Of a DNA stretch of 45,628 nt, positions 2,417-44,487 are shown piece after piece. Under the pieces are notes generated by a model. It saw only the letters and a list, made by a program, of their open reading frames with translations, was not told the DNA's origin and searched no databases. Within the stretch, counting starts at the first letter, position 1, and each line of letters opens with the position of its first letter. Both the position numbers and the translations under genes were made by a program. This DNA comes from Campylobacterales bacterium (lineage in GTDB: Bacteria > Campylobacterota > Campylobacteria > Campylobacterales > Nitratiruptoraceae). The DNA is taken from assembly GCA_027065825.1 (NCBI GenBank), contig JAMONM010000029.1, forward strand, positions 1 through 45,628, in the 5' to 3' direction.

Positions 2417-2469
2417 TCAATTTTAAATTTACTCAAGCGGCAATCAGCCCCGCCTGTGGCCTGAAAGTG

Positions 2470-2508
2470 AGAAAGCTATAAGTATCTTTATACTTCAGAC
2501 AGCTTTCT
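2470..2508 (-). promoter_or_regulatory. Long interrupted hairpin between rpsL and rpsG (candidate S7 operator)
   Basis: Two nested arms pair: AGAAAGCT at 2470-2477 with AGCTTTCT at 2501-2508 (8 bp), and AAGTAT at 2480-2485 with ATACTT at 2490-2495 (6 bp, 4-base loop), separated by an asymmetric 2/5-base internal loop. It starts 6 bases after the rpsL stop. No U-run follows on the transcribed strand, so it is not a terminator. Position matches the S7 binding region of the E. coli str operon. That it binds S7 here is inference. Confidence 0.5.
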
Positions 2509-2514
2509 GACTCT

Positions 2515-2886
2515 CTATTTGGGTCTTTTAGTACCGTATTTGGATCTGGATTTCTTTCTGTTGGCGACTCCGGCGGTATCCAGAGCTCCTCTGACGATAT
2601 GGTATTTAACGCCCGGAAGGTCCTTTACCCTTCCTCCCCTAACCAGTACGATAGAGTGCTCTTGCAGATTGTGCCCTTCGCCAGGAATATAACTGATCAC
2701 CTCGTATCCTGAGGTCAGTCTCACCTTGGCAACTTTTCTCAAAGCCGAGTTAGGCTTTTTCGGGGTGGTCGTATAGACTCTCGTACAAACCCCTCGCCTT
2801 TGAGGACACTTAACCAGAGCGGGCGATTTGGACTTTTTAATCACCTTCTTTCTCTCTTTTCTTATCAACTGATTGATAGTCGGCAC
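2515..2886 (-). CDS. rpsL: 30S ribosomal protein S12
   Basis: S12 sits at the decoding centre and tunes translational accuracy. The 123-residue protein starts at a GTG codon ([10 protein letters not shown], the standard N-terminus). The lysines matching E. coli K43 (TTTPKKPNS) and K88 (GGRVKDLPG), whose change gives streptomycin resistance, are both the sensitive wild type. It follows rpoC by 106 AT-rich bases that contain a weak terminator-like repeat and a TATTAT -10 box, so the str genes may have their own promoter in addition to read-through from rpoBC. Confidence 0.98.
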
Positions 2887-12672: not shown

Positions 12673-12697
12673 CTTTTTTTACCTCCTTTCCGACAGA

Positions 12698-12740
12698 AGA
12701 CTTCAAGCAGGTCTTATTGAATGCCCGCTATCTTCAGTCT
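12698..12740 (-). ncRNA. L10 leader: kink-turn autoregulatory structure upstream of rplJ
   Basis: The minus-strand RNA can form an outer stem AGACU (12740-12736) with AGUCU (12702-12698) and an inner stem GCGGG (12728-12724) with CCUGC (12711-12707, one G-U pair), capped by a 12-base loop. The internal loop is GAAGAUA on one side and UUGA on the other. The GAA bulge followed by GA opposite UGA is the arrangement expected of a kink-turn, the fold L10 recognises in 23S rRNA and in known L10 leaders. The structure ends 9 bases before the AGGAGGT site of rplJ. The pairing is visible; binding by L10 is inferred from the family. Confidence 0.65.
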
Positions 12741-24880: not shown

Positions 24881-24899
24881 GTAATGGTTGTAAATAACG

Positions 24900-24919
24900 A
24901 AAAAAGAGGCCAAGCCCCT
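24900..24919 (-). terminator. Terminator-like hairpin between rpsD and rpoA
   Basis: AGGGGC-TTG-GCCTCT pairs over 6 bp (one G-U) with a 3-base loop and runs straight into TTTTTT. It lies 8 bases after the rpsD stop. This is the clearest intrinsic-terminator shape inside the ribosomal clusters. Being mid-operon, it likely works as an attenuator, lowering rpoA-rplQ expression relative to the ribosomal genes upstream. Confidence 0.6.
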
Positions 24920-24927
24920 ATTTTCCG

Positions 24928-25554
24928 TTACTTGGAGTAAAGCTCGACTATTAGACGCTCTTCTACCGGAATTACTATCTCTTCTCTCTCCGGCAGTCTC
25001 GTAAATATTCCGAAAACCTTCTCTTTGTCGACGTCCACCCATGGAACGATTCCGGTCTGATTGGAAAGCTCTATAGATCTTTGAATTTGAGGATTGTTCT
25101 TGCTTTTTTCTCTGATTTCGATCTTTTGTCCAGGTTTCACTCTGTATGAGGGTATATCCACCCTTTTACCGTCTACGAGTACGTGGCCGTGATTGACCAG
25201 CTGCCTAGCGAATCTTCTCGTAGAGGCAAAGCCCATTCTGTAAACGACGTTATCCAGTCTTCTCTCCAAAAGTACGATCAGATTCTCCCCGGTGTTGCCT
25301 TCCATTCTGGCTGCCTCTTTAAAGAGGTTTCTAAACTGTTTTTCGGCCACACCGTACATAAACTTGGCTTTTTGCTTCTCGCGAAGCTGCATTCCGTATT
25401 CCGAAATTTTGGCTCTTCTTTGTCCATGCTGTCCGGGAGCGTAAGGTCTCTTTTCCAATGCGCTCTTGCCCGCGAGTCTTCTCTCTCCTTTAAGAGCCAG
25501 GCTGACTCCCAGTCTTCGTTCGATCTTTTCAACCGGACCTCTATATCTTGCCAT
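24928..25554 (-). CDS. rpsD: 30S ribosomal protein S4
   Basis: S4 is a primary 16S rRNA binder needed for assembly and accuracy. The 208-residue protein starts [19 protein letters not shown] and contains the S4 domain [19 protein letters not shown] and [20 protein letters not shown], both intact. The zinc-finger cysteines seen near the N-terminus of some S4 proteins are absent. In E. coli S4 is the repressor of the alpha operon. The likely control region here would be the long leader before rpmJ. Confidence 0.98.
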
Positions 25555-40661: not shown

Positions 40662-41258
40662 TTACAAGCGGGCTCGATTTTTGGAGTAATAGTAATAAAA
40701 AACGATTAAAACGGCCGCCATTACAACGGCTATTATGAGGTAGAGATACTCTTTTATTCTCTCTTCGTTCTCTCCTAAAAAATACCCTAAAGCCAACAAT
40801 ACCGCGCACCATATTCCGGCCCCCAAAAAGGTATAGACGCCAAAAGCTATCAGCTTCATCCTTCCTATACCGGCCGGTAAAGATATATACTGCCTAACGC
40901 CGGGCACCAAACGACCCCAGAAAGTGCTCGGATATCCGTATCTGTTGAAAAACTCTTCCACTCTGACAACGCTTCGTTCGCTCATAAAAAAATATCTGCC
41001 GTATTTGATTAAAAAAGGGCGACCCAGTCTGTGTCCTACGGCATAGTTAAAAAGAGCCCCGGCCAAACTGCCGCCGGTTCCCGCCAGCCATGCCAAGAAT
41101 ATATTCATTTCTCCTCTACTGGCCAGATATCCTGCTGGAACCATCGCCACCTCGCTCGGAAAAGGGAAAAAGGAGCTCTCCAAAAACATCATGAAAAAGA
41201 TTCCCAAATACCCCATATCCCCAACAAGAGATACTATAAAGGAGACTATTTCGCTCAT
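40662..41258 (-). CDS. DedA/VTT-family membrane protein
   Basis: A 198-residue inner membrane protein with about four to five hydrophobic segments and the family signatures: ESSFFPFPSEVAMVPAGYLA near the N-terminus (residues 27-46) and FWGRLVPGVRQYISLPAG in the middle. The family includes transporters that recycle polyisoprenyl phosphate or phosphatidylethanolamine and supports envelope homeostasis. Which activity this member has cannot be told. Its ATG overlaps the aroC stop (ATGA). The basic C-terminus KNRARL is cytoplasmic by the positive-inside rule. Confidence 0.92.
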   Translation of the reverse strand: MSEIVSFIVSLVGDMGYLGIFFMMFLESSFFPFPSEVAMVPAGYLASRGEMNIFLAWLAGTGGSLAGALFNYAVGHRLGRPFLIKYGRYFFMSERSVVRVEEFFNRYGYPSTFWGRLVPGVRQYISLPAGIGRMKLIAFGVYTFLGAGIWCAVLLALGYFLGENEERIKEYLYLIIAVVMAAVLIVFYYYYSKNRARL

Positions 41259-42328
41259 CCGTATATTTTTTTGAGATTCTCGAGTCTGCCAGAGGCCCCC
41301 AAAAGCAGCATATCCGCCAAAACGAGCGCCATCATAGCCTCGGCCACCACGCTACCTCGCGCCGCTACGAAAGGATCGTGGCGCCCTTTTAGCTCTACTT
41401 CCACCTCGTTGCCAGCCGTGTCGATGGAGCGCTGCTTTTTAAAAATTGAAGGGGTCGGCTTGAACCATACTTTGGCTACCACATCTTCGCCGTTGCTGAT
41501 GCCGCCTAATACTCCTCCGGCGTTGTTGCTGACAAATCCCTCTTTCGTTATTTCATCGTTGTTTTGGCTGCCTCTAAGACGACTCGCTTCTATACCAAGA
41601 CCGATCTCCACGGCTTTAGCGGCGTTGATACTCATGAGCGCCTCGGACAAAACGGCATCTAGTTTGTAGTATATCGGCTCGCCAAGTCCTACAGGTACAC
41701 CGCGTGCACGAACCAACACAGCGCCGCCCACACTGTCGTGCGCCTCTTTGGCAGCTACAATGGCCTGCTTTTGCTTCTCTTCCACATCTGGATCGAGCGA
41801 AAATATTTCACTCTCTCTAGCATAGGTAAAATCGAGACGCTTCGCTTCGATGCCGGCTACTTCGCATACTCCCGCTTCAACCTCGATACCGAACTCTTTC
41901 AAAAGTAGTTTCGCCACCGCTCCAGCAGCCACGCGCGCCGCCGTTTCACGTGCGCTGCTGCGTCCGCCCCCGCGATAGTCTCGGATACCGTATTTGTAAA
42001 AATATGTAAAATCAGCGTGTCCGGGGCGGAAAATATCTTTGATGTTGGAGTAGTCGCGACTCTTTTGATCTTTGTTAAATATCACCATCGCAATGGGCGT
42101 ACCCGTGCTTTTGCCTTCGAATAGGCCGCTCAAAATCTCCACCCCGTCGCTCTCGTTTCTGGCCGTGGTGAATCTGTTTTGTCCTGGACGCCTGCGATCT
42201 AGCTCGCTTTGTATGAAGTCTTCGTCGATCACAAGACCGGCCGGCACCCCGTCCACTACGCAACCGATAGCTTTGCCGTGAGACTCTCCGAATGTGGTTA
42301 TTCTAAATCTCTGACCGAAACTGTTCAT
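41255..42328 (-). CDS. aroC: Chorismate synthase
   Basis: AroC makes chorismate from EPSP, the last step of the shikimate pathway, with reduced FMN. The 357-residue protein starts [20 protein letters not shown], with [18 protein letters not shown] at residues 14-31, and has [20 protein letters not shown] then [19 protein letters not shown], the FMN and substrate signatures. Its ATG overlaps the rnc stop (ATGA), so it is coupled to RNase III. The order TPR-rnhA-rnc-aroC matches C. jejuni. Confidence 0.98.
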
Positions 42329-43014
42329 TGAGCATCTCTTTTTTTCAAAATCTCCAGAGCTCTCTTGGCCGCCTCCTGCTGAGCCGCTTTTTTGCTTTTG
42401 CCGGTAGCGCTTGCCAGGCGCTCCTGGTGTAAATAGACAGCCACTTCGAACTCTTTTTTATGATCCGGGCCGTAAGAGCTAATCAGCCGATATTCCGGAG
42501 TCGTGCCGTATCTTGCCTGCGTCAACTCCTGAAGAGTCGTTTTATAATCTTTAAAAAGCGTATTGAGATCGATTTTGGGATAGACTCTCTCTAGAAGTTT
42601 CAACGTAATCTTTTTTACCTCTTCAAGACCGCTTTCAAGATATATGGCCCCCATTACGGCCTCAAAAGCGTTGGACAACAAAGAGGGTTTTGTTCTGCCG
42701 TCGTTATTCTCTTCCGCAGCCGAAATATATATAAACTTTCCCAAAGAGAGCTCCGAGGCAAGTTTGGCAAATCCCTCCTCGTTGACCAAGGAGGCTCTCA
42801 TTTTCGAAAGTTCTCCCTCGTTTGCATCCGGAAACTTGAAAAAAAGATACTCCCCGATCACCAGATCCAAAACCGCATCTCCCAAAAACTCGAGTCTTTC
42901 GTTGTTATACGGCTTTTTATAGCTTTTGTGGGTCAAAGCTTCCACAAGAAGACTCTTGTTTTTAAAGCTGTATCCCAAAATCTCTTCGAAACGTCTCAGG
43001 CTCTGATGGGGCAT
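42325..43014 (-). CDS. rnc: Ribonuclease III
   Basis: RNase III cuts double-stranded RNA, including rRNA precursors. I place the start at the ATG at 43014 ([17 protein letters not shown]) because AGGAGG lies 5 bases upstream; an in-frame GTG at 43074 lies in the upstream hairpin. The product is 229 residues. The signature [10 protein letters not shown] is at 38-47 with E39, E42 and D46. The second metal-site segment reads [10 protein letters not shown]118 (E. coli E117) is present, but the position of E. coli D114 is Asn115. The C-terminal double-stranded-RNA domain is complete (DYKTTLQEL to [10 protein letters not shown]). A long inverted repeat directly precedes the gene. Confidence 0.97.
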
Positions 43015-43026
43015 TGCTCCTCCTTG

Positions 43027-43077
43027 AAAAAAAGGAGCGATGAGTGAGGAGTGGCGCCACTCTTCACTCTTCACTCC
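43027..43077 (-). terminator. Long inverted repeat with U7 tail between rnhA and rnc (terminator/attenuator or RNase III site)
   Basis: On the minus strand a 21-base arm at 43077-43057 pairs with 43054-43034 with only three non-Watson-Crick positions (one of them G-U), around a central GGCGCC, followed directly by seven Ts (43033-43027). The left arm includes the rnhA stop codon and consists of GAGTGAA heptamer repeats. The tail ends just before the AGGAGG site of rnc. It has all the marks of an intrinsic terminator, and its long stem is also a possible RNase III substrate. Confidence 0.8.
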
Positions 43078-43496
43078 TTGGAAGCTTTTAGAGCTTCTTC
43101 TTTCGCTATTTTATCACATATTTCGTTCTCTTTATGCCCGCTGTGCCCCTTTACCCAATAGGCCATGATTTTGTGAGGTTTGGAAACTCTCAGGTACTCC
43201 TGCCACAAATCTCTATTTTTGACGTTTTTGAAATCCTTCGCTATCCAGTTTTCGAGCCACTCGTTCAACGCCTTGACAACATAGTTGGAATCGCTGTAAA
43301 CCTCAACCTCGCAGGGCTCTTTAAGCGCCTTTAATCCCTCAATGACGGCCTTTAGCTCCATTCTGTTGTTGGTGGTGCGACTCTCGCCTCCTTTGACTAT
43401 TCTCTCTCTGTCTTTGTATCTAAGTATGGCGCAATACCCTCCGGGTCCTGGATTGCCCAACGACGATCCGTCACTGAAAAGATAGACTCTCTTCAT
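43071..43496 (-). CDS. rnhA: Ribonuclease HI
   Basis: RNase HI degrades the RNA strand of RNA-DNA hybrids. I use the ATG at 43496 ([20 protein letters not shown]), preceded by AGAGGA, rather than the TTG one codon earlier. Length is 141 residues. Catalytic D9, E47 (NNRMELKAV) and D69 (VYSDSNYVV) are in place, with the fourth acid in [19 protein letters not shown]. The gene starts 26 bases inside the upstream TPR gene, and its last codons form the left arm of a terminator-like repeat. Confidence 0.97.
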
Positions 43497-44487
43497 CAAA
43501 TCCTCTTTTTTTCGTAATAACCATCTCTACCTCGGGAGAGCGCGGAGCCAGACATACCGGGCATCTGTAAAAGGAAAACGGAAACATGTTTTTGCACTCT
43601 TTGCAAACATATTCAAAATCGAGATCGGCCACATCCCTTTTTAGCGCCAACAGTAGATCCAACTCGAAAATATCGCTGCCGTCACACAGCGAAACCACTC
43701 TCCTGGCGCTAAAGAGCTCTTTTAAAAAAGGGGTGTTTTTCAGCTTTTGATAATCTATTTTTTCTGGATCCATTCTCCACAGCAAATCGGCCACTCTTTT
43801 TAGGTGATCCTCGCTAAAAGCGTCCCAGTCGCCGTAGTTTCGTTTCATTAAATACTCAAAAAGGGGTCTTGGCTGATCAACGCCGCTCTTTTTAAAAAAA
43901 TCTACGACCTTTTTTGGGTCTTCAGAGTTCCCTATCATCTCCATGAGTTTGAAATAGTCTCTTTCGCGTTTAAAATCCCCCAGTTCCTCGAGAGACTCCA
44001 AAATCTGCGACGCCTTGTCGAATCTACGCAGCCTTTCGTATATCAGCATCAGATATCTCAAGGAGTCCTCGTCTTTGGGATATAGTTTCAAAGATTCGAC
44101 GAAAATCTCCCTCGATTTTTCCAAAAAACCGGCTCTAAAGTATACTTTGCCCAATCTTTTGAGCAGTTCGATCCTCCCTAGATTGGGATAATCTTTTTTA
44201 GACAGTTCCAAATATATGGCTATAGATTTTTCAAAATCGCCGGCTCTTTCAAACGCGTCGGCCAAAAGCAGCAAAGCCCCGGCAGTATCTCCCCGCTGTT
44301 CGATATTCAAGATCTCTCTGTCAGCGCACTCTTCGAACTTGTGGAAAAATCTCCTTAACTGCTCCTCCTCCTCCCTTTTTTTATACCTGGCCCACCAATA
44401 GCTGAAAAACGAGACTATAAAGACAAGGATCAAAAAGACCAAAATACCGAACAGAGGGTCCCTGTACTCCAGGAGAAAGTTTTCCAA
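43471..44487 (-). CDS. Membrane TPR protein with C-terminal rubredoxin-like zinc ribbon (LapB-like architecture)
   Basis: The best start is a TTG at 44487 (M/L-ENFLLEYRDPLFG), with AAAGGGAT 4 bases upstream; a longer reading to 44643 would run across the divergent dnaG gene and its promoter. The product is 338 residues. One membrane helix covers residues 10-31, followed by a basic stretch and several TPR-like repeats (ADAFERAGDFEKSIAIYLEL, LGKVYFRAGFLEKSREIFVE). The C-terminus has C295-x2-C298-x10-C309-x2-C312. This order matches LapB/YciM of E. coli, which links LPS supply to FtsH and LpxC, down to the x10 spacing and CPxC. Overall identity cannot be judged here. The gene also fits the Cj1637c position of C. 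jejuni. Confidence 0.85.
   Translation of the reverse strand: MENFLLEYRDPLFGILVFLILVFIVSFFSYWWARYKKREEEEQLRRFFHKFEECADREILNIEQRGDTAGALLLLADAFERAGDFEKSIAIYLELSKKDYPNLGRIELLKRLGKVYFRAGFLEKSREIFVESLKLYPKDEDSLRYLMLIYERLRRFDKASQILESLEELGDFKRERDYFKLMEMIGNSEDPKKVVDFFKKSGVDQPRPLFEYLMKRNYGDWDAFSEDHLKRVADLLWRMDPEKIDYQKLKNTPFLKELFSARRVVSLCDGSDIFELDLLLALKRDVADLDFEYVCKECKNMFPFSFYRCPVCLAPRSPEVEMVITKKRGFDEESLSFQ

Follow-up and report, generated by a model that had tools for sequence, protein, structure and literature searches.

A long stem-loop, P1, lies directly upstream of the RNase III gene (rnc) in the rnhA-rnc-aroC-dedA operon of a Campylobacterales bacterium (Nitratiruptoraceae; assembly GCA_027065825.1, contig JAMONM010000029.1, positions 1 to 45,628, the whole stretch of 45,628 nucleotides analysed here and hereafter called the window), and a stem of this kind recurs at the same position in relatives of the same family with its sequence turned over. 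On comparative sequence grounds, we consider it rather probable that the junction serves as a cis-acting double-stranded RNase III site on the enzyme's own polycistronic mRNA. The four genes and P1 are all read on the minus strand, and the features of the operon and of its first junction are as follows.

43071..43499, minus strand: rnhA (RNase H), open reading frame with Pfam PF00075
43032..43079, minus strand: stem-loop P1, 20 bp with two 1x1 mismatches and a GCGC loop, from folds and exact position
43027..43033, minus strand: U7 run overlapping the 3' end of P1, from the sequence
43019..43025, minus strand: rnc Shine-Dalgarno sequence AAGGAGG, from the sequence
42325..43014, minus strand: rnc (RNase III), open reading frame with Pfam PF14622, PF00636 and PF00035
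41255..42328, minus strand: aroC (chorismate synthase), open reading frame with Pfam PF01264, 4-nt overlap with rnc
40662..41258, minus strand: dedA-like membrane protein, open reading frame with Pfam PF09335, 4-nt overlap with aroC

P1 spans 48 nt, its left arm (43079-43058) and right arm (43053-43032) enclosing the loop (43057-43054), and its 20 pairs (9+6+5) include one U.G pair and are interrupted by an A.A and an A.C mismatch. The initial annotation, which had described a long stem-loop before rnc with three imperfect positions, was accurate apart from the length of the arms (22 nt each rather than 21), the imperfect positions being the two mismatches and the U.G pair. The U7 tail and the rnhA stop codon that it had placed inside the left arm (TGA, 43073-43071) were also found at their exact coordinates, and the first two U residues of the tail are paired at the base of P1. 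The predicted folding energy is -30.1 kcal/mol; the 81-nt stretch around P1 has a z-score of -4.9 with none of 200 shuffles equally stable (folded on the plus strand), and P1 is retained when folded in a 241-nt minus-strand context. P1 occupies the 56-nt spacing between rnhA and rnc, with its 3' end 17 nt upstream of the rnc AUG (ATG at 43014-43012). The rnc gene itself is intact and encodes both the catalytic and the dsRNA-binding domain (Pfam). A known RNA family was rejected for P1, as an Rfam search of 42900-43200 returned nothing near the gathering score.

Stems in relatives were located by multi-width scans and direct folds. Of the 22 genomes in the window's family, 21 yielded an rnc gene. 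The rnhA-rnc gap measures at least 40 nt in 14 of these 21 genomes, and all 14 carry a long stem of 18-25 bp (-16.5 to -30 kcal/mol) that ends 10-25 nt before the rnc AUG. When the gap is expanded to 137 nt, as in G005, the stem stays close to the ribosome site of rnc, 17 nt from its AUG, and well away from the rnhA stop codon. The long stem is absent from the other seven genomes (G004, G010, G011, G015, G018, G019 and G020), each with a gap of at most 19 nt. Loss of the stem from relatives with an unchanged operon, which the initial annotation had named as an argument against its proposals, is partly borne out: G004, a member of the window's own genus, and the six others keep the rnhA-rnc order, but all seven have lost the spacer altogether along with the stem. 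With one third of the family lacking it, the stem is evidently dispensable, which speaks against an RNase III site, as does its rarer occurrence beyond the family, where a stem of -14 kcal/mol or below was present in only 6 of the 16 rnhA-rnc gaps that measure 40 nt or more. In a tree built from rnhA, rnc and aroC, several deep nodes of which are weakly supported, stem-bearing and stem-less genomes are intermixed.

No strong stem was found at the following junction, rnc-aroC, within the family. Overlapping in most relatives, this junction is widened to ~164 nt in G001, where a GAGTGAT heptad array sits immediately 3' of the rnc stop (G001:C27:4733-4765); the matched stretch of the G001 rnc contains one in-frame TAG.

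As background we sampled ~320-400 kb from each of six genomes and scored every same-strand junction. The rnc junction ranked 2/260 in the window's genome and 5/291, 6/277, 2/268, 1/252 and 2/252 in the other five, ranks that carry the noise of heuristic control gene starts (longest ORFs plus Shine-Dalgarno score) and of some control stems lying in coding sequence or tRNA. Orthologous junctions were matched via both neighbours, giving 84 that are present in at least three of the six genomes, and with a stem cut-off of -14 kcal/mol, picked after the data had been seen, only rnhA-rnc bears a stem in every genome (6/6), while 77 of the 84 lack one throughout the sampled genomes. The runners-up were rpsD-rpoA (3/5, in one genus), rpsL-rpsG (2/5) and rplA-rplJ (2/5), the latter two presumably corresponding to known E. 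coli ribosomal-protein autoregulatory regions.

Several other junction stems were noted. The rplA-rplJ junction of the window holds a 17-bp stem (12692-12739, minus strand) of near-identical sequence in G008, which we take to resemble the known L10-type leader, and the rpsL-rpsG junction holds a 22-bp stem (2463-2515, minus strand) with AGTCAGAAAG units similar to the octad stems of relatives (see below). A 19-bp stem (24892-24933, minus strand) is located immediately upstream of rpoA, a junction at which G002 and G003 have unrelated strong stems and G006 and G008 have none. Finally, glnK-amtB junctions bear stems of 19-20 bp that differ in sequence in the window's genome (G000, L140:12434-12549) and in G002 (L164, minus strand).

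The initial annotation had proposed that P1 is either a site of self-cutting or an attenuator. An intrinsic terminator or attenuator, at which the stem and U7 stop some transcripts after rnhA and lower expression of rnc-aroC-dedA, is unlikely in our estimation. The tract directly after the stem gives P1 the combination of a GC-rich stem and a U-tract, in this genome only, and among the gene ends sampled here P1 is the strongest terminator-like stem (-29 versus -13.9 for the next); to this extent the U7 tail, which suits a terminator as well, weakens the case for an RNase III site. However, none of the other 13 stem-bearing relatives has an uninterrupted U-run after its stem, even though the stem is kept: nine of the 13 have at most two U residues within the 9 nt that follow, three are present in G002, and the U-rich stretches of six in G001 and G003 are interrupted. 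Moreover, the 20 pairs of P1 compare with a median of 10 in the terminator-like stems of this genome. As the U-run is not kept and the stem is twice the usual terminator length, termination is not the shared role, and we rejected it as the conserved function; it may nevertheless add to function in this genome. Conversely, the retention of a long stem immediately upstream of rnc despite sequence turnover favours the RNase III reading over the attenuator, so that of the two original proposals self-cutting gained ground and conserved attenuation lost it.

The extent of this turnover is evident from the stems themselves, which fall into approximately six sequence classes among the 14 stem-bearing genomes. 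Both arms of P1 consist of GAGTGAN-type heptads with ~1 mismatch per unit, and this heptad class is otherwise represented by the heptad-like stem of G014. An octad class (AAAGTTAG) is found in G001, G002, G003 and G005, and the remaining four classes are not built from repeats (G012/G013/G016, G006/G008, G017 and G007/G009). For most pairs of classes, similarity hardly exceeds that of shuffled sequence, with z-scores of 3-4 for some purine- or pyrimidine-rich pairs. Within one class, G006 and G008 keep an AATACT pairing while the inner helix has diverged, a comparison for compensatory base changes that was made by eye with few homologous stems per class.

These repeat units raise the alternative that heptad and octad inverted repeats are spread through intergenic gaps as neutral elements, one of which came to lie functionless at this junction, an explanation that we judge quite unlikely. 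Repeat units of P1's kind are indeed dispersed in G001, G002 and G003, with arrays well above the reversed controls (octads in G002, 55 matches versus 6; heptads in G001, 21 versus 5, and in G003, 20 versus 1), short repeats also build several further strong stems at junctions of G002 and G003, and dispersed types of this sort make up the arms within the window's genus, which counts against the RNase III site. Against a neutral origin, the window's genome has a single heptad array, the one at this junction, four of the stem classes found there are not repeat-built, and recurrence on the scale of rnhA-rnc is absent from every other one of the 84 orthologous junctions. A dispersed repeat in the genome's own complement was rejected, with no second copy of P1 found in G000, and P1 therefore lacks the many copies that characterize a REP-like dispersed palindrome. 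In G002 the octad arrays (AAAGTTAG and variants) occupy ~25-30 sites on C1 (e.g. 52791-52868, 378735-378836 and 1461512-1461580), and several are inverted pairs predicted to fold into long stems. The dispersed 7-8 nt repeats probably supply new stems of which selection at rnc retains one, a combination that would explain how the sequence changes rapidly at constant shape.

Very improbable, finally, is a translational switch in which the pyrimidine-rich right arm would pair with the rnc Shine-Dalgarno sequence once the left arm is covered by the ribosome translating rnhA or lost through cleavage, causing rnc translation to drop: such a hairpin is possible in 14 of 14 stem-bearing junctions (-5.8 to -12.8 kcal/mol, at least 3/6 Shine-Dalgarno bases paired, versus at most two in the seven stem-less junctions), but swapping right arms and Shine-Dalgarno regions between species left pairing nearly equal (mean -6.9 versus -7.7 native; permutation p = 0.14), so that base composition (pyrimidine-rich arms versus purine-rich Shine-Dalgarno regions) explains it, and the switch was dropped because it did not beat this control.

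Returning to RNase III self-control, we hypothesize that rnhA-rnc-aroC-dedA is transcribed as a single mRNA in which the 20-bp stem would form just 5' of the rnc ribosome site. When free RNase III is plentiful, the stem would be cut, which would split rnhA from rnc-aroC-dedA and reduce rnc output, probably through decay from the newly exposed ends. The length of the stems (18-25 bp, about two helical turns) fits RNase III. Selection appears to act on double-strandedness and closeness to the rnc start rather than on sequence, and the sequence has accordingly turned over several times, in some lineages through inverted arrays of 7-8 nt repeats. In its strictest form, which we advance tentatively and with slightly less than even confidence, the junction would be a structure-only RNase III operator selected for double-strandedness and start-codon proximity alone, its sequence having been rebuilt some six times, in part from inverted dispersed 7-8 nt repeats. 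If so, double-stranded RNA alone would matter at the rnc operator, and the preservation of shape and place through replacement of the sequence would help explain why a common rnc operator is not found across bacteria. The family also offers natural variants with and without the stem in otherwise similar operons.

Our literature search found no RNase III autoregulatory site for Campylobacterota. Short intergenic heptads near start codons are shared with the TAACTGA direct repeats of Beggiatoaceae and Cyanobacteria (PMC4679880), but the unit here is another one and is inverted and stem-forming. The hairpin between rpsO and pnp, an RNase III substrate in E. coli and Streptomyces (PMC10126417), is likewise a long imperfect hairpin between co-oriented genes, ahead of the controlled gene; there, however, PNPase rather than RNase III is controlled, and cutting is proven. 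In E. coli, S. aureus and S. coelicolor, RNase III is known to regulate itself by cutting the mRNA that encodes it, with a different structure in each. The E. coli site, rncO, is part of the 5' UTR of rnc-era (Bardwell 1989; Matsunaga 1996, cited in PMC5371410 and PMC8708148). P1 resembles it as a helix of about two turns in the untranslated region before the rnc start, kept in those related genomes that have room for it, with the RNase III gene as the putative controlled gene. Unlike rncO, P1 is intercistronic, between rnhA and rnc of rnhA-rnc-aroC-dedA, rather than located at the 5' terminus of the mRNA, the family does not keep the sequence of its stem, and cutting is a prediction here. In S. 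aureus the site is within the rnc coding region (PMC3386247), and in S. coelicolor one site lies upstream of rnc and one within it (Xu et al. 2008, in PMC10126417). As in these two species, RNase III would restrain its own transcript through a stem that this transcript encodes, with every phylum using a structure of its own.
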